This document shows, in pieces, positions 2,724 through 23,925 of a stretch of 26,617 nucleotides of DNA. Each line of letters begins with the position of its first letter. Position 1 is the stretch's first letter. This DNA comes from a virus. The notes under the pieces are model-generated. The model searched no databases. It was given only the letters and a program-made list of their open reading frames with translations, and was not told where the DNA came from. The position numbers were made by a program, and so were the translations under genes. The stretch spans positions 1-26,617 of IMG/VR virus record IMGVR_UViG_3300034375_006719. One strand, given 5' to 3'.

Positions 2724-2746
2724 TAATTATATAACGGAGGGGTAAA

Positions 2747-7009: not shown

Positions 7010-7176
7010 TGGCAATTCAAAATCCGCCAATTACAGAACAACCAGCTTTAGACTTTACATTACTTGAAATGGTTAAGCTTGTTAATGAGCTTGAGCAACA
7101 AAATATTCAATTAATTAAAGACATTAAAGAAGCTACTAACTTCGCTGATTTACAAGCAAAGGTAAATAGACAATGA
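7009..7176 (+). CDS. Small helical protein of 55 residues, unknown
   Basis: A short gene between the nozzle-like protein and the GNAT-like gene. A very strong ribosome site (AGGAGG at 6994-6999, 9 bases before the ATG) and ATGA-type overlaps at both ends support it. The product starts MAIQNPPITEQ and continues with a leucine-rich helix (LLEMVKLVNELEQQNIQLIKD) of coiled-coil character. I do not recognise a family. Its position in the structural block suggests a small virion or assembly protein. Confidence 0.8.
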   Translation: MAIQNPPITEQPALDFTLLEMVKLVNELEQQNIQLIKDIKEATNFADLQAKVNRQ

Positions 7177-7649
7177 TAAAAAAGATTGAGGACAATAATG
7201 TATTCGAAGCTATTCAGCTTATGAATAAATCAACTGAAGATAATAACTACTTTGGGTATGATCGTAATGAATCTGTTTGGATTCAATACTTTACATCTCT
7301 TGTAGAAAAGCAGAATGAAGGAAGCCCTCACGTATTAGTTATAGGTGACTATGATGACAACGGTAATTTAAGAGGGTTTCTTTCAGCTGCAACATTTAGT
7401 AATTATTATAATAAAGAATGGGTTATGGATGTTAAAGATTGCATTGTAGATCATGACTACAATAATGCTTTTGTTGTCTATAGGTTATTTGACGCTATGA
7501 TTGAACACGTTAAAGCTAACGGTGGTCGTCATTGGCGAGCCGACTCGATCAGGGGTGAGCAAGAAGCTCTTGATTATGGTCGTTTCTTGCAACATAGATA
7601 TAATGCGGCATTGCACGTTTCAGTGAGAGGCGTATTACAGGAGAAATAA
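7173..7649 (+). CDS. GNAT-acetyltransferase-like protein in the virion gene block
   Basis: A 158-residue protein. The pattern is reminiscent of the GNAT fold: an N-terminal helix (VFEAIQLMNK), a strand HVLVIGDYDDNG followed by LRGFLSAATF, a strand WVMDVKDCIVD, a helix (AFVVYRLFDAMIEHVKANG) and a final strand HWRADSI. A clear acetyl-CoA binding Q/RxxGxG/A loop is not visible, so enzyme activity is doubtful. GNAT-like proteins of this kind occur beside internal-core genes of T7-like marine phages. The start overlaps the 55-residue gene (ATGA) and AAAGG lies about 10 bases upstream. Alternative: a purely structural or assembly protein. Confidence 0.5.
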   Translation: MIKKIEDNNVFEAIQLMNKSTEDNNYFGYDRNESVWIQYFTSLVEKQNEGSPHVLVIGDYDDNGNLRGFLSAATFSNYYNKEWVMDVKDCIVDHDYNNAFVVYRLFDAMIEHVKANGGRHWRADSIRGEQEALDYGRFLQHRYNAALHVSVRGVLQEK

Positions 7650-8291
7650 ATGATTGAAGATTCAAATCCTAATCTAGGGATTTACGATATGACAGTAGAG
7701 GTTTCAAAAGACGCTCCAAAGTTTTTACGTTATAAACTAAACGAAAACATTTGTAATGGCGGTGGTAGTAGTGGGCAAACTCAGACTTCAGGAATTGATC
7801 CTGAGTTTAAACCTGATCTTCAAAAAGGATTAGGCATTTCAAGAGATTTGCTTGAACAACAACAAGCAGATCCTAGCACAGTAGTTGCAGGATTAGACCC
7901 ACGCCAACAAGAAGCTCTTGGCGCACAAACATTTATGGCTAAAGATAAAATAACTGGTCGTGGATTGTATAATACTCGTGCTGCAGAAGAAAGAGCATTG
8001 CGAGATCTTGCAGGTCAAAATCTTTTAGGTGCAAGTACAGGTAACACACTTGGTTCTGCCCGTAGTCAAGCAGCAATGCAAGGCGCTTTAGCAGGGCGTG
8101 CAGGTGATTATCAAGCACAACGGCAACAAATGGCTGATATCGGTGTTGAACAACTTGGACAAGCTGGTACTACATTTCAAAAACAAAAACAAAAAGAACT
8201 TGAAGCTAAAGATACTTCACTTGATCGCTTCTTTAATCGTTTGACAGGTGTAGCAAATAAAACTACTACAACATCTGGTGGAGGTAAGTAA
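7650..8291 (+). CDS. Probable virion-interior protein, 213 residues
   Basis: No family recognised with certainty. After a polar N-terminus there is a Gly/Ser linker (CNGGGSSGQTQTSG, about 35-48), a segment IDPEFKPDLQKGL, then a long Gln/Ala-rich helical region (about 60-195: LEQQQADPSTV, LDPRQQEALG, GSARSQAAMQGALAGRAGDY) suited to coiled coils, and a Thr/Gly tail. Composition and position match small internal or ejected proteins of marine podoviruses. GGAG lies 7 bases before the ATG, and the gene starts immediately after the previous stop. The last codons, encoding SGGGK, contain the GGAGG ribosome site for the next gene. Confidence 0.6.
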   Translation: MIEDSNPNLGIYDMTVEVSKDAPKFLRYKLNENICNGGGSSGQTQTSGIDPEFKPDLQKGLGISRDLLEQQQADPSTVVAGLDPRQQEALGAQTFMAKDKITGRGLYNTRAAEERALRDLAGQNLLGASTGNTLGSARSQAAMQGALAGRAGDYQAQRQQMADIGVEQLGQAGTTFQKQKQKELEAKDTSLDRFFNRLTGVANKTTTTSGGGK

Positions 8292-8887
8292 TGGCTGTTA
8301 ATATTGCACTTGACGATGAAGAAATGCAAAGGCGTATGCAACAAGTTGCGCCATTAGCACAAATGCCAACCCCTGCAGGTGCGCCAGTACAACCTAGTAC
8401 TATGGATCAAGCTAAGGCTATGGGTACTCAAATGGTACTTGAAAAAGGGCTTGAAGCAGGAATGGCTAAAGCTACTCCTTTAGTAGAAGCAGGGCTAGCT
8501 AAAGGTACATCTGCTTTAACTGGAGCTGGAATGGGTGCAGGGGTTGCTACTGCAGTACCTTATATTGGCGCTGGTTTACTTGCAGGTAAAGCACTAGGCT
8601 TATTTAGTAACGGCGGTCGTGTTGGTCCTTTGTATGCGGCTGATGGAAAAATGGCTTACCCATCTTACAGAAGTAATTACAGTGATTTGAGTGATGCTGA
8701 AATTCTTAAATTAAGCCCTGAAGAGCAAGATGAATATATTAAAACTATTGGCATTGAAGAAGCAATGGATGCTATGTATAATTATAAAGGCGGCAGGGCT
8801 GGCCCATTGTCTAAAGTAGAATACAAGTCAGCTGGCGGTGACGTCTATAAACTATCTTATGGTGGTCCAATAAGCAAAGGAGTGTAG
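8291..8887 (+). CDS. Probable virion-interior, membrane-active protein, 198 residues
   Basis: Residues 1-70 are Met/Ala/Gln-rich and helical. Residues ~72-105 form a glycine-zipper hydrophobic stretch (ALTGAGMGAGVATAVPYIGA) able to enter a membrane, as in several phage ejection proteins. A short motif NGGRVGPLYAADGK follows at 107-120 and recurs in reduced form as KGGRAGPLSK (166-175) and GGPISK near the end; related motifs occur in the 935-residue protein downstream. An acidic helical segment (about 130-160) lies between them. It overlaps the previous gene at ATG/stop and has GGAGG 6 bases upstream. Likely role: a minor capsid-interior protein delivered at infection; this is inference from composition and place. 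Confidence 0.6.
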   Translation: MAVNIALDDEEMQRRMQQVAPLAQMPTPAGAPVQPSTMDQAKAMGTQMVLEKGLEAGMAKATPLVEAGLAKGTSALTGAGMGAGVATAVPYIGAGLLAGKALGLFSNGGRVGPLYAADGKMAYPSYRSNYSDLSDAEILKLSPEEQDEYIKTIGIEEAMDAMYNYKGGRAGPLSKVEYKSAGGDVYKLSYGGPISKGV

Positions 8888-8888
8888 T

Positions 8889-10256
8889 ATGGCAACAATT
8901 CCATATCAACCAACGTATACTACGACTCCGAAATATGGTCTTAGGTATGGTCCATCTCAATTCGCTCCTACAACAGGTACAGCAGGGCAAGGCAGTGCTA
9001 GCCAACAGGTACCTCCAGCTACACTGGGAACACAACAAGGCGGCTATACAATGGCTGATCCTTTTTCTGGCAATCAACAGTTTGCTCAACAACAAGCTTC
9101 ATATGCACCAACACAAGCTTCAGGTGTAAGCAATGCGGCTTACTATGGGCAACCTATTCAAGGAGTATCTGCACAGCCAACTACAGGTTTTCGTAGGCTA
9201 GCTCCGGGAATGACCCAACCACCCCCTGTTTCTACACCAACGCCTACCCCGCCTATGACAACAGAGCCACCTGTACAGCCAACCTCTTATGGCATGGTAG
9301 ATCCTTTTAGTGATAATGACGAGTTTAGACAATCGCAAGTAGCGCAAAGAGATGCCTTCAGTAATACCTTTGGTTATACTAGAGGCACTCAAAATCCTGT
9401 AGGTGTCTTAGGCATGATTCCAGGAGTAGGTTTTGCAATGAATGCGCTCGGTTATAACCCAAATGAAGGTTATACTTATGGTACAGGAGGAACTACAGAT
9501 GCTCAAGGAAATATGTTTGGTAACTATGGTCAAGCTTTTGATCCCCTTACTGGTAAAGCAGTAGCTTCCTTCGGTGGTCCTGTTGGTATGATGGATGTTG
9601 GTAAATCAGCACTTGGTCAAGTAGGTATATTTGGATTTGATCAATCAAATATGATTGAGCCTTATCGTGCTACTGATGCTATGATAAGGCAAGGAATTAC
9701 AGATGCAAGCCTTGCAGGATTACCTAGTATTCCTGGAGAGGTATCTATTGCTGCTATTAGCCCTGATAAACCAATGACTAATCTTGGAACAAACGAATCA
9801 TTTAATGAAGCGGCATCAGCAGGAACAGTTACAGATGGTAATGGTAATCCAGTAACTAGTACAGCCCCTGATGGGACTAAAACAGTAGTTACAACTGGTA
9901 CGCCAATTCAACAAGCAGCTGCTAAACAAGCTTATGCTTCAGGTAATACAAAAGCACCTGCAGGATCTTCAGCAGCAGTTCAAGCAGTGTTAGATAGCTT
10001 AGATCCATCTAAAGCTATTTCTTCAGATGTAACAACATCTATTAGCGATATTGTTAGTGGAACAGGAATGACACCTGCATCTACAGGTAGTAGTAGCTCT
10101 AGCGCTAAGCCGAGTACTCCTGCACCAAGTAGTGTTGCAAATCCTGCAAACTATAATAATAAAGATGGAGTACCATCAAAACCGTCATCCCCTCCTCCCG
10201 GACATCCTGAATATAACAAAGGTGGAAACGATGATAGCTCAAGTGGAGGCAAATAA
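8889..10256 (+). CDS. Low-complexity virion protein, 455 residues
   Basis: No known enzyme motif. It is rich in Pro, Gln, Thr, Ser and Gly. Two copies of a short motif are visible: YTMADPFSGNQQFAQQQ (53-69) and YGMVDPFSDNDEFRQSQ (134-150), separated by a proline-rich linker (PPPVSTPTPTPPM). The middle (about 165-250) has a Gly-rich, weakly hydrophobic part (GVLGMIPGVGFAMNALGYN). The C-terminal ~70 residues are a Ser/Pro/Gly disordered tail. AAAGGAG lies 6 bases before the ATG. The last codons (SSGGK) carry the GGAGG site of the next gene. It probably belongs to the internal virion set; disorder would help passage through the tail. Confidence 0.6.
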   Translation: MATIPYQPTYTTTPKYGLRYGPSQFAPTTGTAGQGSASQQVPPATLGTQQGGYTMADPFSGNQQFAQQQASYAPTQASGVSNAAYYGQPIQGVSAQPTTGFRRLAPGMTQPPPVSTPTPTPPMTTEPPVQPTSYGMVDPFSDNDEFRQSQVAQRDAFSNTFGYTRGTQNPVGVLGMIPGVGFAMNALGYNPNEGYTYGTGGTTDAQGNMFGNYGQAFDPLTGKAVASFGGPVGMMDVGKSALGQVGIFGFDQSNMIEPYRATDAMIRQGITDASLAGLPSIPGEVSIAAISPDKPMTNLGTNESFNEAASAGTVTDGNGNPVTSTAPDGTKTVVTTGTPIQQAAAKQAYASGNTKAPAGSSAAVQAVLDSLDPSKAISSDVTTSISDIVSGTGMTPASTGSSSSSAKPSTPAPSSVANPANYNNKDGVPSKPSSPPPGHPEYNKGGNDDSSSGGK

Positions 10257-13063
10257 TGAAACTTAAAAGTCTTACAAATAAAGACCGATATGGTAATATG
10301 TTCTCCGTTGAGTTCTTTGAGCCGCAAACATCGGTTCCTATGATGATGCTTATTCCTGAGATGGAAGAAGAGGGTTATAACGGTGCTACTGTAGAAGGGC
10401 ATCCCGGAGATCCTAAAGGTACTGATACAGTCCCTGCATGGCTAACTCCCGGAGAAAACGTAGTTAATGCAGAAGCCTCTCGTATTCCGGGCAATCAAGA
10501 AATGATTGATCAAATGAACGAAGAGGGTCGAGCTATACAACAAGCACAAGGTGGACCTATTCCTACCTATGAGGCAGACGGTGGCACAATGCCAGCAGCT
10601 AGTATTGATGGTAATGAGTTTGTTAAAGCAGCTCAAGCAGTAGGTTTACCAACAAATAAATCAACTTTAAATAAAATAGTTAAACTTGTTAATCAAGGAA
10701 TAAGTGTTGCACAAGCTGCAAAAATAGTTGCAGGTGTTCCAAAGTATGAATACAATGGCGGTATGATTCCTCCTATGTATTCAGCTGAAGGCGAAACAGT
10801 ATTACCACTTGGATTACGCCAAAATAATCCAGGGAATATTAGGTCTGGAAAAGATAATTGGTTAGGGCTTACTGAAGGTGGTAATGAAGGTTATGCTCAG
10901 TTTGAAAGTCCTGAATATGGACTTCGTGCTATGGCGCGTACGTTAGGTACTTATGCAGACACACATGATATTGGGACTATCGATGGACTTATTGATCGAT
11001 ATGCTCCTGCTGGAGATAACACTGAAGAATCGAGAGCAAACTATAAAAGTGTTCTTGCAGATACACTAGGTGTAGGTGTTAATGATCCTATTGACCTTAA
11101 GGCCGCACGTAATCAGCTTATGCCAGCTATGATTGGATTTGAGAATGCTAATAATATGCCATATACTCAAGATCAAATTAATATGGCAATTCAAGCGGCA
11201 GGAACAGATGATCCAGCAGCAGTTAGCGAAATACTAGCTGGTATGCCACCTAAAAAAGACAGTGGTTTTTCACTTATTTCTTCGGCAAATGCAAGTACTC
11301 TTGTTCCGGAGCTAGATCAAGCACCACCACCAGTCTCAAGAGGCGGCACACCAATTGATTCAGAAGCGCAAGCTGCAGGGATGCGCTTTAATGAAGCAAT
11401 ACCTGAGTATATGCGTAACAATAAGATGGAAGGTAAAACTGATTACGGTGATGTTATTTATGATTCAGATGGCACCCCACAAGCAGTAAACCCTAATCGC
11501 ATTTCGCCTGAAGCTAAACAAAAAATTATTGATAAGTTTGTAGAAAATGGCGATCAAGAAATGTATGATCGTAGAATAGCAGAATATGAGCAAGCAGTAA
11601 AACAAGATGAAGCTCATAAAAAATATAAATCAGATCAAGCAGAACTTGAAAAAACACAAGAAACATCTAAACGAAATGAAACAATTGCAACACTTGAAGA
11701 GCGTAGAGATCAAGCAATTGTTAACGGTGATGATGATTTAGCTGCTGCTTTGCAAAAAGAAATTGATGGAGTTCCACCTATTGAAGGTGTCCCTCCTACA
11801 AACAATGCGCCAGCAGATACAGATGATACATCATTAAATCCTATTGTAAATAATATTATAGCAGAAGGCTCTCAAGAAAAACAACCTGACAGCGATAACA
11901 CTAGCGAAGATGAAGTTATAGACGCAGGTAAGAATGCACCAGATTCTTTAAAAGAAACATTTAAACAAGGTTTTATAAATGCTTTTGGTGATTTGTTTAG
12001 TGCAAAAGAATTAGCAAGAATGGCAATTTTGTATACGGGATCTCGTATCTTAGGGTATAGTCATAATGGCTCTTTAGCTTACGGTGCTAAGAGTTATATT
12101 TCTAGAATTGATGCTAGAGATAAACAAGAGTATGAACTTGTAAAAGCTAACGCTAAAAATTACACTACAGAATCTTTTAATAAGTATATTGAAACACGAG
12201 ATATGGATGATCTTATACCTGTAGTTGAAGTAAAAGAACGCAAAGCAGGTGACTATCTTTATGTACCTAGGGCAGGTGGCAATGTGCCTTCAATAGATGT
12301 TGAAGGTGTTCCTCATGTTAGTGTTAGAGATATTAATGGGCCTGATGGTAAACCTGATGGTAAAGTTGATTCTTATGATCTTGAAAATGCAATTAATGTA
12401 GGCGGCGTTAAGACAGTAGATAATATTCATAACCCAACTACTGTAGAAGCTGAATTTAGTAAAACATTATCGGATTTAGAAAGCACTATAAATAAAAGAA
12501 GGGGCGTAGGTAATCAAGGTTCAGACGCAGTAGCGTTAGGGCTTAACGATCCTGTTGTGGCAAGTGCTGCAATGACTCTTTATTTCCAAGATCTTCAAGA
12601 CTTTAGTGCAGATCCAGCAAAAGCATACATGCTTAAAGGCCAAATGAAAGAAGCAATTCGAGAGTGGTCAGAAGCAATGGCAGCGTATGCTAATGACCCT
12701 AGCAGTATGGATGATCCGTCAAAATCTTTGTCTGCTTATTATTTTAAACGTAGGATTAAAGATCGAGTTGATGTTTCTGCATCTGCATTTGGTGATACTA
12801 CCCCTGAAAAAATGGTAGAGATTTATCGGGATACAAGTGCAGGGCTTAATGATTTACAAACTCAAACAGTTTATAAACGTGCCTTGCGTCTTTATAATAT
12901 TGCAAAGCAAAATAAGATAGATATGAAAGGGTTTGATTTTAAGGGAACAAATGATGTAGGTTATAATGGTTTTGCATTTTTCTTGCATCAACTTAATCAA
13001 GGCGATGATCGCGCAATTGCAGTCTTTAATGCAGCAAAAAAGTTTGAGACTAAAAAGGAGTAA
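10256..13063 (+). CDS. Large virion protein with TPGE motif and NNPGNIR (muralytic-like) domain
   Basis: A 935-residue protein. Residues 42-95 hold a motif common in phage virion proteins (KGTDTVPAWLTPGENVVNAE). Residues 98-113 (GGPIPTYEADGGT) and 167-180 (NGGMIPPMYSAEGE) carry the short GG-P-Y-A motif seen in the 198-residue protein. Residues ~186-312 form a compact domain beginning LRQNNPGNIR, then NWLGL...YAQFESPEYGLRAMARTL, IDRYAPAGDN and a C-terminal helix. I know this domain from phage structural proteins proposed to open the cell wall; Glu219 or Glu225-region residues could be catalytic but I cannot assign one. The rest (about 330-600 coiled coil, Glu/Lys/Gln-rich; 600-935 helical) is unrecognised. 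GGAGG lies 6 bases before the start. Likely an ejected core protein with local peptidoglycan-cutting activity. Confidence 0.65.
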   Translation: MKLKSLTNKDRYGNMFSVEFFEPQTSVPMMMLIPEMEEEGYNGATVEGHPGDPKGTDTVPAWLTPGENVVNAEASRIPGNQEMIDQMNEEGRAIQQAQGGPIPTYEADGGTMPAASIDGNEFVKAAQAVGLPTNKSTLNKIVKLVNQGISVAQAAKIVAGVPKYEYNGGMIPPMYSAEGETVLPLGLRQNNPGNIRSGKDNWLGLTEGGNEGYAQFESPEYGLRAMARTLGTYADTHDIGTIDGLIDRYAPAGDNTEESRANYKSVLADTLGVGVNDPIDLKAARNQLMPAMIGFENANNMPYTQDQINMAIQAAGTDDPAAVSEILAGMPPKKDSGFSLISSANASTLVPELDQAPPPVSRGGTPIDSEAQAAGMRFNEAIPEYMRNNKMEGKTDYGDVIYDSDGTPQAVNPNRISPEAKQKIIDKFVENGDQEMYDRRIAEYEQAVKQDEAHKKYKSDQAELEKTQETSKRNETIATLEERRDQAIVNGDDDLAAALQKEIDGVPPIEGVPPTNNAPADTDDTSLNPIVNNIIAEGSQEKQPDSDNTSEDEVIDAGKNAPDSLKETFKQGFINAFGDLFSAKELARMAILYTGSRILGYSHNGSLAYGAKSYISRIDARDKQEYELVKANAKNYTTESFNKYIETRDMDDLIPVVEVKERKAGDYLYVPRAGGNVPSIDVEGVPHVSVRDINGPDGKPDGKVDSYDLENAINVGGVKTVDNIHNPTTVEAEFSKTLSDLESTINKRRGVGNQGSDAVALGLNDPVVASAAMTLYFQDLQDFSADPAKAYMLKGQMKEAIREWSEAMAAYANDPSSMDDPSKSLSAYYFKRRIKDRVDVSASAFGDTTPEKMVEIYRDTSAGLNDLQTQTVYKRALRLYNIAKQNKIDMKGFDFKGTNDVGYNGFAFFLHQLNQGDDRAIAVFNAAKKFETKKE

Positions 13064-13066
13064 TTT

Positions 13067-16000
13067 ATGGCTGATGACTTTAGTTTAAAAGATCATCAAG
13101 GTAACAGTTCTTTTGTTATTGATGGTGATACTGAGTACAATAATGAAACAGGCAAACGTGAACGTTTAGCAGGTGTTAACGCTCGTGAAACAGCTAAAGT
13201 TAGCAAAGATAAATATGGTGAAGACGTATTTGAAGCTCCTGAACTTGGATCTGCAGCTCAACGAGAAGCATATAAAAAAATTGTTGAGCAAGGAGGCTTT
13301 AACTACAAAGTAAATACAGGCAAGTATGACAGCAATGGTCGAGAGATTATTGAAAGATACGATGCTGATGGTAATAGTCTTTCTGAAACTTTAATTGCAA
13401 CAGGAATAGTTAGGCCTGATATCTATACTAGTCCTGAAGCTATTCAAGCAAGGGAAGACTATTTACTAAGAGAACAATTAACAGGTAAGCCTGGAAATTT
13501 TTCAGAAATTGCTAACGATGTTGAGCAAGCAAGAGAAATTACTGGGCTTGCTTTTAAACAAACTGCTTTAAATGAAGCTGTATATAATCCTGATATTCAT
13601 TCAGGTGTTGCTTTTAGAGATCACGATAGAACGCTAGATAACAAAGGCATTGGTATTCTTGGTCAAATGGGTGACGCTTGGGATGCTGGATGGGTTGGTG
13701 TACGCGAAGGGATGTACGGATACCTTGAAGGCATTGGCGTGATGACTGGCAGTGAAATGCTAGAAGGTATTGGGGCGCAAGGCACTATGCGAGCGCGAGA
13801 AGAACTTCGTAATGCGCCTGAAGGTATTTTAGATTATCGTGAAGTAGATGGTCTATTAACAGGCTTTCAATATGTTATGAATAATGCTGCAATGAGTGCG
13901 CCCTATATGGTTACTACTTTTGGAGCAATGGCAGCTGCAGTTCCTGCTACAATGATTGGAGGACCACTTGCAGGTGCTATAACCTTTGGTTTACCAAACT
14001 CGTTCATTTATGGTGGTCATGCTTGGAACGAAATGGAAGGCGAAAAAGGTGCTGAACAGTTTGCAGTAGCTACAACAGTGGGTGTTGCTGCTTCAGTATT
14101 AGATCGCTTTGGTTTGTCTAAGTTGTTTTCTCCTACCCAGCTATTAAGTAAAGCAGGTGTTAAAAAAGTAGCTAAAGAACTAGCAGAAAAACGAGGTGTT
14201 TCTGAGGTAGTTGCTGAATCAGCGCTTAGAAAAGCAACTCGTGAAGAACAAAAGGCAGCAATTAGTATGCTAGGTTCGTTAACACCTGACGATCTTGCTA
14301 GATTTTCGGGAAGCCAATTAGGTAAACGAGCAATGGCTGGTGCTGCAATGGAATCAGCAACTGAGATTGCACAGGAAGGGCTTCAGTACGGCGCAGCTGT
14401 AGGTTTTTCTGATAAAGAATATAATGCAGATCAATTGTTTAATCGTCTTGTAAATGCAGGTATTGCAGGTGGTGTGCTTGGTGGAGGCCTAAGTGCTGCT
14501 GCTAATGTATATACGCAAGGTAAACAAGAAGTATATCGCCAAGGAAAAGCTCCTGGAGACCAAGATCGCTATCGGACTATGAATCAAGCTAAAATGAATA
14601 AGTTACAGCGCGATGGCAGTGTTGAAAGCATTGAAGAAAATATTGAGAATAAAGATGCACAACAAAACAGATCGCAACAAGCAAGGGCTGCAATTACGCC
14701 TGAAGAAAAGGAACGAGCTGTTGTTGGTAATCTTACAGAGGCACAACTAACTGAAATTACTTCTGGTTCCTCAGTTAATGCTATTCAAAGTGAACTTGAT
14801 ACGCTTGAGCAAGCACTTACTAATGCAGAAAAGCGTGGTGCAAATACAAGCAGAATTAAAGCAGCTATTGAAAATAAAAAAGCTGAGTTAACACAGGCTA
14901 AACAATTACAAACGCAAGCAATTGCAGAAGTAAAAAGAAGGAGTGAAGGTGCAAAGCCATTAACTAGCGAAGAAGTAGCATCTGTTAGAGAAAGAATTCG
15001 TCTTGCAGAGTTAGAAAGGCCTTCAGATGTAAAAGGTGTCTTTAATAATGAATCACAAAAACATATCAATAAAGTTAGAGGTGCTAAAAACTTTATAACT
15101 AATCTTGTTGATCTTTCTGATTTTGCCTCTAAGGTAGGAACTGGTTTAAAGAGATTATTTCAAGCAGCAGAACGCAGCGCAATTGAAATGTCTAAGCTAG
15201 TTAAAGACGCATCTTTGCTAGATATTTTTGCAAGAGTTGGACAGTTAACTACTGGTGTTTATCACGCTGGTAAAAACTTTAAACAATTTGCAGATGAACT
15301 TATTTCAGAATTTAAAATGTATGTCGATGAAAATTATATAGCTAAACGTTTATTTAACAAAACAATGAATGCAAGCAATGTAATTAAAGCTTCAGCAGAG
15401 ATAAGAGCTTTTGCAAGTAATGAAGGTGTAACTAACGGTAGTGTTTTTCAACAGTATATTGCTTGGCTTCAAATAAAAGAAACAGGTGTTCCTTGGGTAG
15501 AGTTTTATAAACCAAGTGGAAAGCAAAAAGCTTATACTGAAGAACGCGCGCAAATACTTTATGAAGCATCTATGCAAATTAAAACTTCGTATGATGTAGT
15601 AGTTGCTAGGATTAATGAAGAATTGCTTAAAGAAGATCCTAAAGCAACACCTTATACGCTTGATCCTGATTTTTGGTGGCAAAATAGAGGTTTTGATTGG
15701 CACAAAGTAAGAAAAAATAAAGCTAAGTTTAAGGCATGGTTACGGTCAAATGGCTTTGATGAAACTCAAGCTGAAATTATGTATCAAAATATTGCTTACC
15801 GTGGCCAGGCAAACTTTGTAGAAAACTATTCACATGTTAATGGAGATACTTTTTATCCTCCTTTTTTAGAATCTAAAATATTAGATCTTAGTAAACAAAA
15901 AGGATTTGAAGATTTTGCTAGCGAAAATATATTTGAACAGCTTAATAAAGCACAAGTAGAAGCAGCAAAGTATATCTCTATTACTAAATACTTTGGGCAT

Positions 16001-17659
16001 GGTGGTAGAAAGCTTGACTTTTTAATTAGCGAAGCAATACGTAATAACGCAGACAATGATCCTAACGATCCTAATGCAATTACAAGAGAAGACATTGAGC
16101 AATTTGCTTTTTATATGAAGGCAATTATTGATAGTACTCATGGCAACTTTAATGCTATTGAACAACCACAATGGGCTGCTATTAATCGTTTCTTAACCTC
16201 ATGGTCTATCTTTGCAGGATTACCTTTGTCTACTATATCATCTATTCCTGAAACAGCTATGATTTATTATGGTCTCCAGGATGATGCTGATTGGAAAATG
16301 GCTAATAAACAATTGATTACTCAATTAGCTGGAGCATGGGATAAAGCCACTGCTGAAGAGGTTAAGCGTACCGCTGACTTAGTTGATAGAGTTGGCATAC
16401 CTATGAATAGAAATACTATTATTGATAGGCTAGCTACAGGTGAGCGAGATGTGGCTTTTATCAAAGCGCATGAGACTTTCTTTACTTATATTGGAATTAA
16501 AAACTTTACTCAATTTCAACGTAGAATGAATGCTGGACTTGCTATTGATTTTATTAAGTCTAGAACAAGTATACTTGTAAATGCACCTTTAAAACCTGTA
16601 TTGTATTCAGCAGTAAAGCAGAAGAATCAAGATGATTTTGATTTTTTAAATTCAATTGATGAAATTGAAGTTGAAGAGGGTAAATTAGGATTTGATTTTG
16701 ACGAAATGAATGCTGAAGAGTTAGAAGCTTGGAATGCATTAAATGATTTAGGGCTTGATGTTGAACGCATGGTAGAAATTATGCGTGATACAGATGAACT
16801 TTATCGTGATCAAATTTTTAATCCTACTAATACAAAGATTAAAGATAATGATTATATGTTACCTCCTTCTCCAAAACAAGCCGCAGTTCTTTCTGCATTT
16901 CAAAACTCTAAAGATAATAGAGGCACTGAAAGTGATCAAGAATTAATTGCAAAAGCACAAGAACTTGAAAATGAAATAAATGAACAACTTGAAACAGCTG
17001 TGTATCGTTTTGTTAATGAGCGAATTCAAAATCCTCAAGCTGCAAACAGACCTTTGTTTTTTCAAGATCCGCATTATCAATTGTTAACTCAATTTAATGG
17101 TTTTATTTCTACATTTACAGCAGTAGTAATTCCTAAACTTTGGAATCAGTATTTGCGTAAAGGTAATCCTCAAGTTAAATATAATACTTTTGCTTTAATT
17201 GTAATTATGATTAGTCTTGGTGGAGCAAGCCAGTATATTAAAGATTTATTAAAGTTTGGAAAGCCAAGCCCTTATCTTGATACTACAGGTTATGCTCAAA
17301 GAGCAGTGTATGCATCTGGTGTAATCGGTCAATACGAGCGTTTAGCAGATGTAGTTTCACCATTGTATCCTAGCCGTGATGATTGGTTAATGTCAACTAT
17401 TTTAGGCGAAGCAGGCCCAACAGTTAGAAATATTCAAACTCTTGGCAGTGCAATTGGATTAGGCATGCAAGGCGAAGGAGAACGTGCAATTTCAAAAGGC
17501 TTAGGTGCAGCACCGTTAATTGCCCCTGTTACATCTGTACGTAAAGGAATAGCGCAAGGACTTACTGGTCAAAACCCTTTTGAAAACACTACAGTCGGTA
17601 ATGTAGCAGGAGAGGTAGCAGACTCAGCTGAAAACCTAGCTAGAAAACTTTTTAATTAA
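13067..17659 (+). CDS. Giant ejection protein with N-terminal staphylococcal-nuclease-like domain
   Basis: A 1530-residue protein, the size and place expected of a T7 gp16-like ejection protein. Residues ~14-118 match the micrococcal nuclease fold: VIDGDT (Asp21), a strand ending RERLAGVNARET (Arg33, Asn38, Glu41), a helix AAQREAYKKIVEQG, SNGREII (Arg92, equivalent to R87) and LSETLIATGIV. D21, R33 (R35), E41 (E43) and R92 (R87) are kept; the calcium ligand D40 is Asn38. Residues ~278-316 are hydrophobic and Gly/Ala-rich, suited to crossing the inner membrane. Residues ~515-660 are coiled coil. The C-terminal third (FTQFQRRMNAG near 1145, a hydrophobic IVIMISLGG near 1376) resembles large polyvalent phage proteins. 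AAGGAG lies 6 bases before the ATG. No lysozyme domain was seen here. Confidence 0.75.
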   Translation: MADDFSLKDHQGNSSFVIDGDTEYNNETGKRERLAGVNARETAKVSKDKYGEDVFEAPELGSAAQREAYKKIVEQGGFNYKVNTGKYDSNGREIIERYDADGNSLSETLIATGIVRPDIYTSPEAIQAREDYLLREQLTGKPGNFSEIANDVEQAREITGLAFKQTALNEAVYNPDIHSGVAFRDHDRTLDNKGIGILGQMGDAWDAGWVGVREGMYGYLEGIGVMTGSEMLEGIGAQGTMRAREELRNAPEGILDYREVDGLLTGFQYVMNNAAMSAPYMVTTFGAMAAAVPATMIGGPLAGAITFGLPNSFIYGGHAWNEMEGEKGAEQFAVATTVGVAASVLDRFGLSKLFSPTQLLSKAGVKKVAKELAEKRGVSEVVAESALRKATREEQKAAISMLGSLTPDDLARFSGSQLGKRAMAGAAMESATEIAQEGLQYGAAVGFSDKEYNADQLFNRLVNAGIAGGVLGGGLSAAANVYTQGKQEVYRQGKAPGDQDRYRTMNQAKMNKLQRDGSVESIEENIENKDAQQNRSQQARAAITPEEKERAVVGNLTEAQLTEITSGSSVNAIQSELDTLEQALTNAEKRGANTSRIKAAIENKKAELTQAKQLQTQAIAEVKRRSEGAKPLTSEEVASVRERIRLAELERPSDVKGVFNNESQKHINKVRGAKNFITNLVDLSDFASKVGTGLKRLFQAAERSAIEMSKLVKDASLLDIFARVGQLTTGVYHAGKNFKQFADELISEFKMYVDENYIAKRLFNKTMNASNVIKASAEIRAFASNEGVTNGSVFQQYIAWLQIKETGVPWVEFYKPSGKQKAYTEERAQILYEASMQIKTSYDVVVARINEELLKEDPKATPYTLDPDFWWQNRGFDWHKVRKNKAKFKAWLRSNGFDETQAEIMYQNIAYRGQANFVENYSHVNGDTFYPPFLESKILDLSKQKGFEDFASENIFEQLNKAQVEAAKYISITKYFGHGGRKLDFLISEAIRNNADNDPNDPNAITREDIEQFAFYMKAIIDSTHGNFNAIEQPQWAAINRFLTSWSIFAGLPLSTISSIPETAMIYYGLQDDADWKMANKQLITQLAGAWDKATAEEVKRTADLVDRVGIPMNRNTIIDRLATGERDVAFIKAHETFFTYIGIKNFTQFQRRMNAGLAIDFIKSRTSILVNAPLKPVLYSAVKQKNQDDFDFLNSIDEIEVEEGKLGFDFDEMNAEELEAWNALNDLGLDVERMVEIMRDTDELYRDQIFNPTNTKIKDNDYMLPPSPKQAAVLSAFQNSKDNRGTESDQELIAKAQELENEINEQLETAVYRFVNERIQNPQAANRPLFFQDPHYQLLTQFNGFISTFTAVVIPKLWNQYLRKGNPQVKYNTFALIVIMISLGGASQYIKDLLKFGKPSPYLDTTGYAQRAVYASGVIGQYERLADVVSPLYPSRDDWLMSTILGEAGPTVRNIQTLGSAIGLGMQGEGERAISKGLGAAPLIAPVTSVRKGIAQGLTGQNPFENTTVGNVAGEVADSAENLARKLFN

Positions 17660-17707: not shown

Positions 17708-20700
17708 ATGGCTATTAGAGCACAACAACAAAGAACTAGTGGAGATATTCGCCGCGCTCAAGATCAAGAGATGGCACGTATTGAGGCTGAAAGAGATGAA
17801 CAAAGATTACTTCAAGAGGAGCCTAACCCTGCAGTAGCAGCTGCATTAGCAGATGAACAATCCGCAGCTGCGCTAGACCTTCCTTCTGATGTAAGTAATT
17901 TACCAGTGTCTACAGAAGACACACCTGTAGAAACAACTTCAGGTCGATTAGAACGTGAAATACAAGAGCAACAAAACCTTAATCCGCTTAAAGCTGAATT
18001 GTTAGGACAAGCTCAAGCAGAAGCTAGGGCAGGTGCTACAACTATTCCACCAACTGAATCCGATGTAGAGTCTCAAATTGAGCAACAAGTTGCAATGTCA
18101 CAACGGCGAGTAATGCCAGATATTGATTATAGTTATCAAGGTGGACAAGAGCTTGCTAAACAATTACCGCTTGCTACTGCTTCTGCTTCTTCTTATGATA
18201 AAATGGTTTCAGTAGGTAATAGACTTAATGCTGCAGCAGAAATTACTTTTGCAAATGTGTTAGCTTCACCAGAACCACAATCAATTGAAATTAGAAATGC
18301 AATGCTTAACGCAGGGCTTATTACTCCTGACGGTAAAATGACACCTAAACAAGGCAATATACTTAGCTTTCAATGGTTGCAAAATACAGAGGAAGAATTA
18401 AATAAAAAAGATAAGATGATTGCTCAAGAAAAAAATCCGCAAGAATCTTATAAGTATGATGACAATACAGATGATATCGATATATTTGATGAAATAGCTT
18501 CAGGAGAGCCTATTTCAAAGCCTCATGTTGGCGACTTATTAAACCCAGAGTATGAAAGACTTAATATTTCTCGTGGAGTTATTGATAAGTCATTACCAAC
18601 GCCGGATGTTGTTGATGGAATTAGAACAAGCTTTGGTGGCGCAAGTACACAAGTCCCTTCTAGCGTATTACAAGGCCTTGATGCGTTATACTGGCAAGTA
18701 TTTGATGAGGCAGGATTCGTAGAAAAAGTTACTCATGGTGATAAAACAATGTATCAAATGTCTCAAGAGGCAGTTGATTATTATTTTGATGCTCGTGATG
18801 TAATGAATGATGTTATTCCTGAAACTAATTCTTTACCCTCTTTGTTTGCTGCAATTGATGGGCTTACCTTTGGTGCAGAACGAGACTTAGGTTTTAAAAA
18901 AGAAGGCAATGTATCTATTAAAAGTATGAGAGCAGTTGGCGATGACCAAGAACGACAATTCATGGATAACCAAGGTCGATCACCTATTCGTATTAATAAC
19001 GATATGTTTTCAATTGGACAACGATTTGTAAACTCCATTATTCGTTATCAAGTACTTGCTAATGGTCGGATTATTCTTAATCGCAAACAGCCATTAACAG
19101 ATAAAGACCCTAAACATTTTTATTCTACTAATCCTTATGCAGAACGCGTAGGTATGCATAAAGCTAAATGGGATGCTTACAAATCAGCAGCAGAAATGCG
19201 TTTAGGTATGACTGAAATTGATGCTGAAGAACAAGCAAATATGATTATGGCAATGCAAGCACGTAAGTTAGCAATGGATACTCACTATGGCTCTGAATTT
19301 TCAGATAAAATATTTTATCTTCGCAAGATGTATGCTTCTATTACAGGACGTATTCATGATAGAAATAGCCGTCTTAGCCCTCAACAAAGTAAATATGTAA
19401 GAAACTTTTTAGAGTCTGCAGTGCCTGTGTTTATTGATCTTGGTAAAACAAACAATAAAACAATTAGAGAACAAGCAGAATATGCAATTGGTCGTGCTTT
19501 GCTTTCATCTAAAGATACAGGTGGTCGGCGTATAGAAGATATTGGTTGGAACGAAACAACTAAACTTGCAAAAGAAAAAATATTTAATGATCCAGAAAAT
19601 TATTCTCGAATTGTTAATATAGGCCGCAAAGTAAGAGACCTTAAAAATAATCCTTCATTAAACATTAATGAACAGTTAGAAGGTATTGATACTGATTTAG
19701 CAAATGCAACTAATGACCCTGAAGAATGGGGTATTCTATTACAAGCATATATTGATATGGCAAACTATGATGATGCAAATAGTGTATTAAAATATCAAAT
19801 GACACCTGACTCTACTGTAACTGTTCAAACCAGACCAGCTGCTAGGACAATTGTATCAAGCCCGATTAATGCAGAAGGAAAAAGGGTATCGCCTCGCGCT
19901 AAACAATTAATGCAGCAATTAGAAGATGCACGTATTAATGAAGATCAAGATATGATTCAACAGTTAGAGTCAGAGCTTAATAACGAGATGAATACCTTAT
20001 CTGTTGTTTCTGCTCCTGTAAAAACTGCTAGCTCTATTTGGAGACCTCGTGTTCTTATTAAGCATGACACTAAACAAAGTGGCATGGCAATTCAAGCTGC
20101 ATTGTTTGGAAATGTAGATATTTTAAAACGAGTAGGCGCTATTTTTTCAGATGAAAAGAATATTATTCCTGAAGGAGATATTCGTGATTTGTTTATGGAA
20201 AATTTAGATAGCTCTATTAAAATTGCATTTACAGATGATTTAGCTAAGCAAGGTTTTTGGACTGATATTATAAACAATTTAGCAATGCAAGGAAATAGTA
20301 AAGCCGTAGCTAAAGCTCTTTCAAGAGCGCCATTGATGGAATCATCCTATGGTAAATTTATTGGCTTTATGCAAGAGACAGCAATTAAATTTATCAATGG
20401 TGAATTTGGTGATTTTATTCAAGAAAGAATTAAATATTCTAGTAATGTTTTGCCAGGATATAATGAAAATCAAGCAATAATTGATTTGAATAGGTTAATT
20501 GCGGTTAATCTTAATCGCACTTTGTCTTTTCAACAACAAAAATTGTTAAAAGATTTAGGCGCAGTGTGGGCTATTCTTGGTAATCAGAATGCTAGAGTTA
20601 GAAGTGCTACTGGTAAAATGATTTATTTAGGTGGTAAAGAAGCAATATCAACAGGTCAACAAATTAGTTTACCAACACCACGAGGTCAAATTCAACGTGA

Positions 20701-21472
20701 TGTAACTGCAATTGTACCTACTAGTACTGGTAAAACAGAAAAAGTACCGTTAACTTTTGATGAAGAAACTTTTAAATTTAAACCTGGACAAGAAACTAAA
20801 TATGGGCAGCAAGTTATTAATCAGCTTCCGGTTGTTATTATTCAGGCTTTAGATGCAGCAATTATGGTTAATACAATTAACCTTGCTAACAAAGGACGCA
20901 AAGAAAAAGGATTGCCGCCTTTGTTTATGCTTGATATCCATGATTCTATTATTTCAGATATTAACTCCGTAAGAGCTTCTCATCAATTGTATAATAAAGT
21001 AGCTAAAGAATTAACAATGCCTGGAAAACGTCAATATCCTATTTGGAAAATGATTAGTGAAGAACTTTCTCTTGGAGTTAAAGAATGGAAACAATCAATT
21101 AATCCAAAAGATACGTATGAAGTTTCAGATAGAAGCTTAACTTATCGTGGATTACATGGTCAATTGCAAGAGCTTAATAATAAAATTTCAGATGAAACTA
21201 AAAATACTTTTCCAGAAGGATTAGAGGGATTGGGTGGTTTATCAGGGCGTGAAAGTACAAAAGCTTTACGCGCTAAATTAACTGAAATTAAAAGACTAGG
21301 TTGGAAACCAGAAGGTGCAGTTATGACTGGAGAAGCACTTCAAAAAACTGTTCAGTTAATTACAAATTATTTTCAGTTAGCAAGCCGATTAAGGGCTGCT
21401 CAAGCTGAAGTTATAGCTGATAATGAAAAAGCTGCTAAACTAATTTCACCAAATTACATGGGCTTTAACTAG
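17708..21472 (+). CDS. Probable virion-packaged single-subunit RNA polymerase (N4 vRNAP-like)
   Basis: A 1254-residue protein with the ordered signatures of single-subunit RNA polymerases in its C-terminal 60%. A loop at 544-567 (SITGRIHDRN...SPQQSKYVRNFL) matches the GR...NPQ region before the palm. Motif A is LIKHDTKQSG with Asp787 (T7 D537). Motif B is KALSRAPLMESSYG with Lys869, Arg873 and Tyr881 (T7 R627, K631, Y639, so Lys and Arg are exchanged). LPVVIIQALDAA at 1040-1051 fits the helix before motif C. Motif C is DIHDSIISD with His1078 and Asp1079 (T7 H811, D812). Motif spacing is close to T7 except for a Gln/Glu-rich insertion of ~125 residues before motif A. Residues 1-130 are Gln/Glu-rich and probably disordered. 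It is much more like N4 virion polymerase than the T7-type enzyme at 21787. It follows the ejection-protein gene, so packaging is inferred. AGGAG lies 7 bases upstream. Confidence 0.75.
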   Translation: MAIRAQQQRTSGDIRRAQDQEMARIEAERDEQRLLQEEPNPAVAAALADEQSAAALDLPSDVSNLPVSTEDTPVETTSGRLEREIQEQQNLNPLKAELLGQAQAEARAGATTIPPTESDVESQIEQQVAMSQRRVMPDIDYSYQGGQELAKQLPLATASASSYDKMVSVGNRLNAAAEITFANVLASPEPQSIEIRNAMLNAGLITPDGKMTPKQGNILSFQWLQNTEEELNKKDKMIAQEKNPQESYKYDDNTDDIDIFDEIASGEPISKPHVGDLLNPEYERLNISRGVIDKSLPTPDVVDGIRTSFGGASTQVPSSVLQGLDALYWQVFDEAGFVEKVTHGDKTMYQMSQEAVDYYFDARDVMNDVIPETNSLPSLFAAIDGLTFGAERDLGFKKEGNVSIKSMRAVGDDQERQFMDNQGRSPIRINNDMFSIGQRFVNSIIRYQVLANGRIILNRKQPLTDKDPKHFYSTNPYAERVGMHKAKWDAYKSAAEMRLGMTEIDAEEQANMIMAMQARKLAMDTHYGSEFSDKIFYLRKMYASITGRIHDRNSRLSPQQSKYVRNFLESAVPVFIDLGKTNNKTIREQAEYAIGRALLSSKDTGGRRIEDIGWNETTKLAKEKIFNDPENYSRIVNIGRKVRDLKNNPSLNINEQLEGIDTDLANATNDPEEWGILLQAYIDMANYDDANSVLKYQMTPDSTVTVQTRPAARTIVSSPINAEGKRVSPRAKQLMQQLEDARINEDQDMIQQLESELNNEMNTLSVVSAPVKTASSIWRPRVLIKHDTKQSGMAIQAALFGNVDILKRVGAIFSDEKNIIPEGDIRDLFMENLDSSIKIAFTDDLAKQGFWTDIINNLAMQGNSKAVAKALSRAPLMESSYGKFIGFMQETAIKFINGEFGDFIQERIKYSSNVLPGYNENQAIIDLNRLIAVNLNRTLSFQQQKLLKDLGAVWAILGNQNARVRSATGKMIYLGGKEAISTGQQISLPTPRGQIQRDVTAIVPTSTGKTEKVPLTFDEETFKFKPGQETKYGQQVINQLPVVIIQALDAAIMVNTINLANKGRKEKGLPPLFMLDIHDSIISDINSVRASHQLYNKVAKELTMPGKRQYPIWKMISEELSLGVKEWKQSINPKDTYEVSDRSLTYRGLHGQLQELNNKISDETKNTFPEGLEGLGGLSGRESTKALRAKLTEIKRLGWKPEGAVMTGEALQKTVQLITNYFQLASRLRAAQAEVIADNEKAAKLISPNYMGFN

Positions 21473-21734: not shown

Positions 21735-21788
21735 AAATACCCCACAGGGAATCCTATATGGAAACCTTGTGGGGTTTTTTTTATTTTT
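21731..21788. terminator. Bidirectional intrinsic terminator between convergent operons
   Basis: ACCCCACA (21739-21746) pairs with TGTGGGGT (21768-21775), extended by GG/CC pairs with a small bulge. On the plus strand it is followed by a run of eight T, then ATTTTT. Read on the minus strand it is followed by ATTTTTAT. It therefore serves both the plus-strand late operon and the minus-strand operon that ends with the T7-type RNA polymerase, whose stop codon lies at 21787-21789. Confidence 0.92.
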
Positions 21789-23925
21789 AACAGAAGAAGT
21801 AATCTGAATCACGTACACCTTTAATATCAAGTGTACCAATCGTAGGCACAACGCCTTGATAGCCTCTTCCGAAAGGAATACTATTATAAAAGTTATTTGT
21901 ATCGTATATAGACACAAACTCTTCTCTAGTTTTATTCATAAGTAACTCAACGTGTGTTGCATGAGTGCTAAATGAATCATGCACGGCACCAAAGTCACCT
22001 TCCCAGTTAGCTACAGTAAGAGCCATGTGACTAGCATCCATACTATGCACAAAGTTAGGGCTAATACCGCACATAAAACCACGCCTATCAGGGATATCTG
22101 TTTTCTCTCTGATAACATGTTTAAAGCGTATCTCGCCATCAAGAGTATTAAACCCGTAGCAATCTACTTTAACGGGCCTAGTACGATAGCACTCGTACAC
22201 CACAGGGAAGCCGGATGGGGTTACCCATTCAATTCCCTTACCTCTGTCTGTGCCATAGTCTCTGGCCCAGTTTGTGATCTCTTGATCGGCAAGGCGCTGT
22301 AGGTATCGCATAGTATCTAGCGGTCCTGGACAGACTTCCTGGATAGCTCTGATAACTTGATTGCTTAGCTCATCGCAATCCCAAGTGCTTATGTTGTAGT
22401 CTTCAGTAAAGCCGAATTGATAGCAGTCACTGTACATAGATTCAGACATTTTCTTTTGTCCACAGCTATAAGCACGTGTCATAGCCCCACGCTTAGCAAT
22501 GCCCTTACGAATATGCTTCATAGGCATTTGACGCTCTTCAAACCATTCAGGCATACGTTGAGTAAGCCGCTTAGCTACTTGTACATAAAAGTCGTTCTGT
22601 ACCTCGGTAGGAACAAGGCCAACTAACTGACCTGTGTTATCGTCTTTAGACATTGCGCCTAAGTGTTGCCAGCCGTTATTAGCACCATCAATAGGTATAG
22701 GTAAGCGCGTGTAAAAGTCACCTTCAGTTTGGGAGTACTTGTACCATTCAATACAACAAGCAAGAAATGAAATAGGCTTTTCTGCTTCATGCATAAAGAT
22801 TTTACGCTCACCAAACTCAACAATGCTATCTATGTTTTGTTGAGTCCACATTGCTCTATCTTCAAGAGTCATCTTGTCAACTGAAATAGTATCAAGTTCC
22901 TCTTGCTCAAGCACACTACGATAATCAGTAGTAACCCAATCAGGTATTTCATCAATACCGTAGGACTGATTATATGAACAAGCAGTATGAACGCCTAGCC
23001 AAAAGCTAGCGTTACTATCAAACAACTTTGCTCTTGCAAACAACAGTTGTCCTCGTGCTATATCAGAGCCTTGAAAGTTAAAGAAGGGTTCTGAATAATA
23101 CAGCCTACCTCTATAGTCTGCATCGAGATAAAAACTAAACTCTTTATGCAACCATTTAGCTGCAATTGCCATTACCTCTTTTACTTCTCTATTCTTTGAA
23201 GCTTGCCGCTGATATAGCTTTTCGTTTTCTTTCTTGTCTTCACCATCAAATTTTTCTGACTTAATAAAAGAATCCCACTGCTGCATAATAGCAGCGTGTA
23301 CATCTGGATTAACAAGCCAACGAGTTGCTTGAAGCTTGTCGATAGCCTTAACAAAAGGTGCATTAAGATAGTAAGTAAATTTCTTTTCCTTAGATTTATC
23401 CCAAGTTTTAATAACGCTTTTGTCATTTGCTTGCATTAAACTAGTAATCGGTTTAATGATTTCATCAGTCATACAAATAGTTTTGCCAGCAACTGCTTCC
23501 ATTTCACCCCATTTATCAGTGGCATGGATAGTTACTGGCTTACGGCTTTTCATATGGCCTACCTGTATAGTAAGATAACCACACATTACAAAGCCTTCTA
23601 TAACCAAGTCGCCTACACGAACATGATCTCTAAAGTTAACATTGTTAGCGTCCCAATTTTCGATAATGTGTTTACCAATAGCCATTGAAGCTTGGGTAAT
23701 AGGCGTTTCACCTTCTGTTTTGCTACGCTTAAAACAGCGTTGCATTGTTTTTCTAGCGTAAGTAATCATGTCTTCAATTAAGAAGTCAAGCATATCAACA
23801 CCATCAGTGTCAATCATACGCATAAGCTGTAAATTACGTCTAGGTTTGACTCCTAAGTCATCCCCTCTAATTTTATTCAGAAGATAGTCCTTTACGTCTT
23901 CCATCAGTTTCTCTTTTCCAAACAT
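21787..23925 (-). CDS. T7-type single-subunit RNA polymerase
   Basis: A 712-residue DNA-directed RNA polymerase for phage promoters. Visible elements: DADYRGRLYY at 268-277 (T7 DWRGRVY); motif A IPIDGANNGWQH with Asp413; motif B RKGIAKRGAMTRAYS with Lys478 and Tyr486; TPSGFPV of the specificity-loop region; GISPNFVHSMDASHM; motif C VHDSF with Asp650; and an aromatic C-terminus SDYFFC like the FAFA foot of T7. In motif B the position of T7 R627 is Lys474, with Arg473 next to it. The part before DxRGR is 267 residues against about 420 in T7, so the N-terminal domain is short. Start: Met1 has only GGGG before it; Met8 (ATG at 23904) has GGAAAAGAG 6 bases upstream and may be the true start. It overlaps the upstream 84-residue gene and is last in the minus-strand operon. 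Confidence 0.95.
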   Translation of the reverse strand: MFGKEKLMEDVKDYLLNKIRGDDLGVKPRRNLQLMRMIDTDGVDMLDFLIEDMITYARKTMQRCFKRSKTEGETPITQASMAIGKHIIENWDANNVNFRDHVRVGDLVIEGFVMCGYLTIQVGHMKSRKPVTIHATDKWGEMEAVAGKTICMTDEIIKPITSLMQANDKSVIKTWDKSKEKKFTYYLNAPFVKAIDKLQATRWLVNPDVHAAIMQQWDSFIKSEKFDGEDKKENEKLYQRQASKNREVKEVMAIAAKWLHKEFSFYLDADYRGRLYYSEPFFNFQGSDIARGQLLFARAKLFDSNASFWLGVHTACSYNQSYGIDEIPDWVTTDYRSVLEQEELDTISVDKMTLEDRAMWTQQNIDSIVEFGERKIFMHEAEKPISFLACCIEWYKYSQTEGDFYTRLPIPIDGANNGWQHLGAMSKDDNTGQLVGLVPTEVQNDFYVQVAKRLTQRMPEWFEERQMPMKHIRKGIAKRGAMTRAYSCGQKKMSESMYSDCYQFGFTEDYNISTWDCDELSNQVIRAIQEVCPGPLDTMRYLQRLADQEITNWARDYGTDRGKGIEWVTPSGFPVVYECYRTRPVKVDCYGFNTLDGEIRFKHVIREKTDIPDRRGFMCGISPNFVHSMDASHMALTVANWEGDFGAVHDSFSTHATHVELLMNKTREEFVSIYDTNNFYNSIPFGRGYQGVVPTIGTLDIKGVRDSDYFFC

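Follow-up and report, generated by a model that had tools for sequence, protein, structure and literature searches.

A divergent staphylococcal nuclease domain at the head of a giant virion-type protein of marine short-tailed phages

The 1,530-aa product of an ATG-initiated gene (positions 13067 to 17659, plus strand) begins with a divergent staphylococcal nuclease (SNase) domain, which is formed by residues 1 to 118 (positions 13067 to 13420, plus strand) and is joined to a large virion-type core. The gene comes from a 26,617-nt (26.6-kb) virus record, the whole of which was analyzed and is referred to here as the window. The fusion is fixed in a group of marine podoviruses that includes the cultured Roseobacter phage CRP-7 and is also present in Aeromonas phage phiA008. 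The favored reading, to which we assign a rough probability of 0.6, is that a virion-built, catalytically competent SNase-type nuclease leaves the particle with the ejectosome and cuts nucleic acid at the site of entry. On this reading, a preformed nuclease may reach the host as soon as infection by these marine phages begins; how a phage keeps such an enzyme alongside the DNA that it packages, and what the enzyme cuts in the first seconds, is the question that follows. In T7, the enzyme at this end of gp16 cuts peptidoglycan; here, that end is consistently occupied by a predicted unspecific nuclease whose active site is intact and for which no inhibitor is apparent. Experiments can address the question directly, since both CRP-7 and phiA008 are isolated phages and the domain is small enough to be expressed.

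Identification of the SNase domain

The sequence-only reading assigned residues 14 to 118 to an SNase-like domain. Taken as a single sequence, residues 1 to 145 of the window protein match the Pfam SNase family (PF00565) with an E value of 0.0071 and a score of 17.2 bits, under the 21-bit gathering score, which is a detection threshold and not a biological definition. Pfam searches produced no match for the entire 1,530-aa protein or for the N termini alone of the proteins from CRP-7 and from the loci L027 and L025, and a PF00565 search of the window's own record returned nothing at E values of ≤0.001. Matches to PF00565 at E values of ≤1 were obtained for 7 of the 24 family members (best E value, 5.2e-5). 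NCBIfam had no match for the domains from the window, L018, and L021 and a single chance-level match for phiA008; PADLOC had no match for the four proteins submitted to it.

The subthreshold single-sequence result is overturned by the family profile. When a profile of 24 N termini was compared with all PDB sequences, the best match was an SNase (E value, 2.5e-4), and the best 60 of the 84 PDB matches, as listed, were all SNases or thermonucleases, with the DGDT motif, R35, E43, and R87 of SNase aligned opposite family residues. The profile was derived from the window and the 31 loci described below, after removal of near-duplicate or truncated sequences (L007, L009, L010, L024, L026, L028, and L031). 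The other 23 N termini in it are 17 to 43% identical to that of the window, as measured in an alignment that also omits L030 and thus holds 23 loci and the window.

Structure prediction led to the same fold. The AlphaFold model of residues 1 to 145 (pLDDT, 87; pTM, 0.76) is a predicted OB-fold with SNase topology that runs on to approximately residue 139, taking in a third helix. A Foldseek search of the PDB with this model retrieved SNases and SND1 (E value, 1.9e-4; probability, 1.00; TM-score, about 0.5), and VIA-align superimposed it on SNases with a Z-score of 10.6 and an rmsd of 3.1 to 3.3 over 112 to 118 residues. The TM-scores are moderate, and the modeled domain is therefore described as a divergent member of the SNase family.

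Conservation of the active site

All of the active-site positions proposed from the sequence alone (D21, R33, N38, E41, and R92) were found where they had been placed. On the plus strand, the metal-binding DGDT motif, D19-G20-D21-T22, is encoded at positions 13121 to 13132 and corresponds to D19, D21, and T22 of SNase; R33 (positions 13163 to 13165) aligns with R35, E41 (positions 13187 to 13189) with E43, and R92 (positions 13340 to 13342) with R87. The residues at these six SNase-equivalent sites (D19, D21, T22, R35, E43, and R87) are invariant in all 45 aligned N termini, of which 41 are distinct; contigs from later scans were added to this alignment only if they were new and reached the N terminus, and near-identical rows remain in it. 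Within a set of 32 nonredundant full-length relatives, from which proteins that were ≥95% identical or ≤1,200 aa long, as well as that of phiA008, had been dropped, the mean pairwise identity of the domain is 35% (minimum, 19%), and the only invariant columns within residues 1 to 118 are M1, D19, D21, T22, R33, E41, and R92. The chance that four catalytic sites named in advance would all fall within 7 invariant columns out of 118 is about 5e-6. Apart from the initial Met, the invariant positions correspond to the metal-binding and catalytic sites of SNase. Six invariant residues amid a mean identity of ∼35% argue for a working nuclease.

The fifth position, N38 (positions 13178 to 13180, plus strand), lies opposite the SNase calcium ligand D40, and the change to Asn had been presented as the one deviation of this protein from SNase. 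The window does have Asn; the substitution is no peculiarity of it, because about half of the family has Asn (23 of 45) and the other half has Asp (20) or Glu (2), with Asp being present in phiA008. Judging from the alignment, Asn38 is a family-wide alternative and not a sign of decay of the window copy. An Asn at this site could nevertheless weaken calcium binding in the window phage.

Distribution of the fusion

Relatives of the whole fusion protein were detected at 31 loci in viral contigs. A search with the domain alone yielded 12 confirmed loci, all 12 of which place it at the N-terminal end of an ORF product of 1,309 to 1,375 aa. The nuclease domain and the core diverge together (Mantel r, 0.85, a value reached in 0 of 2,000 permutations). 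At each of the 26 loci (of 31) with enough downstream DNA, the fusion gene is followed by a plus-strand ORF of 1,142 to 1,327 aa and then by a minus-strand ORF. A scan of a genome collection added one relative (L085) on a contig binned as Dehalococcoidia, which is probably a mis-binned virus contig.

The same order is found in CRP-7, where gp35, gp34, and gp33 are followed by two small genes and the convergent RNA polymerase gene gp30. A domain profile from which CRP-7, its close relatives, and phiA008 had been excluded recovered CRP-7 gp34 (QBQ72827.1) with an E value of 1.1e-18 and the phiA008 protein with an E value of 3.8e-10, both in a small database, and had no match in the stretches retrieved from tf, Phriendly, KPP25, UFV-P2, and CRP-810. 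The phiA008 protein (UIS74281.1; 2,050 aa) exceeds the Pfam SNase cutoff (29.9 bits; E value, 7.9e-7). Both proteins are deposited as “hypothetical protein,” and in the accessible portion of the report covering CRP-7 (PMC6918029), gp34 is not discussed and no word starts with “nuclease.” Scans of the viral contigs with the whole phiA008 protein and with its N terminus revealed no relative. Elsewhere in the CRP-7 genome, at gp44 to gp46 (L084, positions 35552 to 38170), the annotation splits ribonucleotide reductase into two parts on either side of a hypothetical gene, as if an insertion had interrupted it.

The virion-type core and its neighbors

The view that the giant protein belongs to the virion or ejection module was borne out by its similarity to phrog_6958, a family of virion structural proteins (E value, 2.3e-17), and by homology of the core to proteins of KPP25 and tf. 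The core of the relative L017 matches a KPP25 structural protein (E value, 3e-10) and the tf “phage particle protein” (E value, 5e-6), so that the C-terminal half is homologous to the large virion protein of the LUZ24/KPP25 type; the phiA008 core matches records of the KPP25 group with E values of 8e-29 to 6e-28. In LUZ24, nine proteins have been identified by mass spectrometry and seven tf proteins are homologous, according to an excerpt of PMC3517423; the annotation of tf_51 notes similarity to LUZ24 gp50. Hydropathy analysis of the core of the window protein revealed Gly/Ala-rich hydrophobic stretches at residues 287 to 305 and 461 to 479. From this homology to virion proteins and from the position of its gene, the giant protein is probably ejected into the host with the genome.

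Several relatives of the core (in tf, KPP25, Phriendly, UFV-P2, and CRP-810) are devoid of the nuclease, the N termini of the tf, Phriendly, and KPP25 proteins having no SNase-like domain. As these relatives do without it, the nuclease is dispensable for ejection in itself. In CRP-810, gp35 (2,016 aa; L038, positions 2559 to 8609) adjoins an ejection-type core and has a subthreshold match to an ADP-ribosyltransferase family (ART-PolyVal; E value, 7e-5; 24 bits versus a cutoff of 31.2 bits); at the sequence level, this suggests that related roseophages may load other enzymes onto this module. The N terminus of KPP25 ORF088 (L037/L033) contains a near-identical tandem duplication of ∼140 aa that spans the start of the record, either a repeat or an assembly effect. 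Orthology with T7 gp16 was sought with a full-length profile and was not found: the profile had no match in the PDB, T7 gp16 included, at E values of ≤1. Kinship with gp16 would thus rest on size, place, and analogy, and because no homology was detected, the analogy in topology that is drawn below is weak.

The upstream gene (positions 10256 to 13063, plus strand) encodes an internal virion-type protein of 935 aa with a lysozyme/endolysin-like domain at residues 181 to 322 (phrog_873; E value, 5.9e-30). The Pfam SLT domain (PF01464) was detected in 9 of the 12 scanned members of this family, the window's own copy being without a match, and the task of cutting peptidoglycan seems, from these sequence matches, to sit in the upstream protein. 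Its ORF is separated from that of the fusion protein by 3 bases, and the ribosome-binding site of the fusion gene, AAGGAG, occupies positions 13055 to 13060 (plus strand).

On the other side, a gap of 48 bases separates the fusion ORF from a gene (positions 17708 to 21472, plus strand) for a single-subunit RNA polymerase of 1,254 aa, which had been called a virion polymerase. The polymerase part of that claim stands by fold and motifs. The protein had no match in the PDB by sequence; its family carries DGKQNG-, LSKxPLMExSYGK-, and HDAIITD-like motifs that represent motifs A, B, and C of single-subunit RNA polymerases, and the model of its core (residues 470 to 1170; pLDDT, 79) matches mitochondrial and T7 RNA polymerases (Foldseek E value, 3.3e-8; VIA-align Z-score, 17.7) and the N4 virion RNA polymerase (PDB entry 2po4; Z-score, 11.8 over 504 residues). 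The “virion” part comes from the place of the gene, which makes it probable that this polymerase is carried in the particle.

Next comes a convergent gene for a T7-like RNA polymerase of 712 aa (positions 21787 to 23925, minus strand; phrog_414; E value, 1.8e-102). The window accordingly encodes two phage polymerases on opposite strands, one compact (1,254 aa) and one T7-like. At L025 (positions 13605 to 15846) and L028, the convergent polymerase region is split on the minus strand into two shorter ORFs of 343 and 295 aa, the latter truncated by the end of the locus, where the relatives have one long ORF. The genes around these ORFs code for a holin, an endolysin-like protein, a ribonucleotide reductase, structural proteins, and primase/helicase, and the ORF list of the window contains no inhibitor-sized gene between the fusion gene and its neighbors.

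Proposed function and alternative explanations

The proposed delivery of a working nuclease to the entry site builds on the domain and its fold, the invariant catalytic residues, the consistent linkage to a virion-type core, and a fixed gene order that would read peptidoglycan hydrolase, nuclease fusion, and RNA polymerase. The protein would be packaged in the head and ejected, as its position and its homology to virion proteins suggest, and the domain would be active, as its conservation suggests; the enzyme is probably metal (Ca2+) dependent and sugar nonspecific. In T7, the periplasm contains residues 1 to 156 of gp16, with the transglycosylase, and the protein extends into the cytoplasm with its C-terminal part (PMC8954989, excerpt). 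If this topology is shared, the nuclease would be positioned in the envelope next to the channel for DNA; by analogy with the N-terminal part of gp16 (gp16-N), it may be periplasmic or membrane proximal and may act there and not on the host chromosome. It would then attack DNA that is stray or belongs to competitors, or any nucleic acid of the host that it can reach.

SNase requires calcium at millimolar concentrations, and free calcium in the cytosol is normally too low for it. The periplasm of a marine host could supply such concentrations; the cytosol or the capsid would not. The nuclease may therefore be off in the virion and in the cytosol, where the metal is limiting, and on in the calcium-rich envelope, and such gating would solve the problem of self-damage without an inhibitor gene. 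An intriguing, if tentative and on balance rather improbable, extension is that the DNA entry machine of this marine short-tailed phage family includes an obligatory virion-delivered, calcium-gated nuclease, silent beside the genome and in the cytosol and switched on in the periplasm, that destroys the DNA of competing phages or host nucleic acid. If true, it would be a protein-borne exclusion or takeover device of the first minute of infection, acting beside a co-ejected RNA polymerase.

The nuclease could instead be carried into the cytoplasm and immediately break up the chromosome or RNA of the host, which would shut the host down and supply the phage with nucleotides as the co-ejected polymerase begins to transcribe phage genes. 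The invariant catalytic residues, the RNA polymerase gene immediately downstream, and the ribonucleotide reductase encoded nearby are all consistent with such a role, as is the kcat of SNase, which PMC2390534 lists as 765 per s for heat-denatured DNA; with so high a turnover, few copies could suffice. Takeover from within the cytoplasm nevertheless appears unlikely: the corresponding part of T7 gp16 stays in the periplasm, free cytosolic calcium is normally too low, and the DNA of the phage itself would be cut too, with no adjacent inhibitor and no annotated DNA methylase among 59 of the 72 CRP-7 features.

Delivery of an active enzyme to the entry site has also been weighed against a catalytically dead OB-fold that binds nucleic acid or protein within the ejectosome. 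Dead SNase domains occur in Tudor-SN/SND1 proteins, SND1 is among the fold matches, and 23 of 45 family members have Asn in place of the calcium ligand D40. This explanation is disfavored and looks quite improbable, given that conservation within the domain is highest at the catalytic residues (45 of 45) while the rest of it diverges to as little as 19% identity. Highly improbable, too, is a nuclease that serves in assembly or targets the DNA of the phage itself, processing packaged or trailing DNA as the particle matures or ejects its genome: it is encoded with virion genes and would adjoin the packaged genome, but the homologous cores of tf, KPP25, and Phriendly manage without the domain, and an unspecific cutter is ill suited to producing defined ends. 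Finally, a chance or common-OB-fold resemblance, which the subthreshold Pfam score and the relatives without any Pfam match might have suggested, is ruled out by the agreement of family profile, fold, and invariant residues, as well as by the phiA008 protein, which passes the Pfam cutoff and was retrieved from a small database by a profile trained without it.

Comparison with known systems

The window family shares with SNases (PF00565; PDB entries 1snc and 1snd) the fold, the DGDT motif, the equivalents of R35, E43, and R87, and the order of the elements. It differs in being only ∼20% identical to them, in having Asn aligned with D40 in about half of its members and a longer stretch between the equivalents of E43 and R87, and in being fused to a 1,500-aa virion-type protein, whereas SNase is secreted.

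Like the window protein, T7 gp16 is a giant ejection-type protein with an N-terminal enzyme, encoded among internal virion genes. The earlier remark that gp16 instead has a transglycosylase at this end agrees with an excerpt of PMC8954989; in contrast to T7, the wall-cutting domain in the window is found in the neighboring protein and the SNase domain takes the N terminus of the giant protein, with no sequence match between the two giant proteins having been found. The N4 virion RNA polymerase (2po4) has the single-subunit RNA polymerase fold in common with the 1,254-aa product, but is a multidomain protein of about 3,500 residues. Phage polyvalent proteins (PMC5512222) share the theme of injected multienzyme proteins; the main text contains none of the terms SNase, staphylococcal nuclease, and thermonuclease.

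CRP-7 gp34 and phiA008 UIS74281.1 have the same N-terminal SNase signature with all of the catalytic residues, the longer phiA008 protein having a core nearer to that of KPP25. The viral structure library also holds a fold match of similar length, A0A6J5NQ80 (uncultured Caudovirales; 1,342 aa), which is already named “Staphylococcal nuclease (SNase-like), OB-fold.” Stand-alone genes for SNase domains are already known in phages. Literature searches identified no description of an SNase-ejection protein fusion, a weak negative, as subscription journals mostly lie outside their coverage.

The closest precedent is BtI1, in which the homologue of the baseplate hub protein gp147 of Bacillus phage 0305phi8-36 carries an N-terminal SNase domain where 0305phi8-36 has a transglycosylase; the authors of PMC2147016 call the utility of that domain obscure. 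The window family resembles BtI1 in having SNase at the N terminus of a virion protein in the place of a transglycosylase. Given this precedent and the named 1,342-aa protein, an SNase in the virion is not an entirely novel idea. BtI1, however, is a single reported case, a long-tailed phage-like element with a baseplate hub core, whereas the phages described here are short tailed, with an ejection-type core and a domain that is fixed throughout a family. As far as literature searches show, what is new is a fixed SNase domain with a conserved active site on a podovirus ejection-type protein, encoded beside a small polymerase of the T7/N4 fold.
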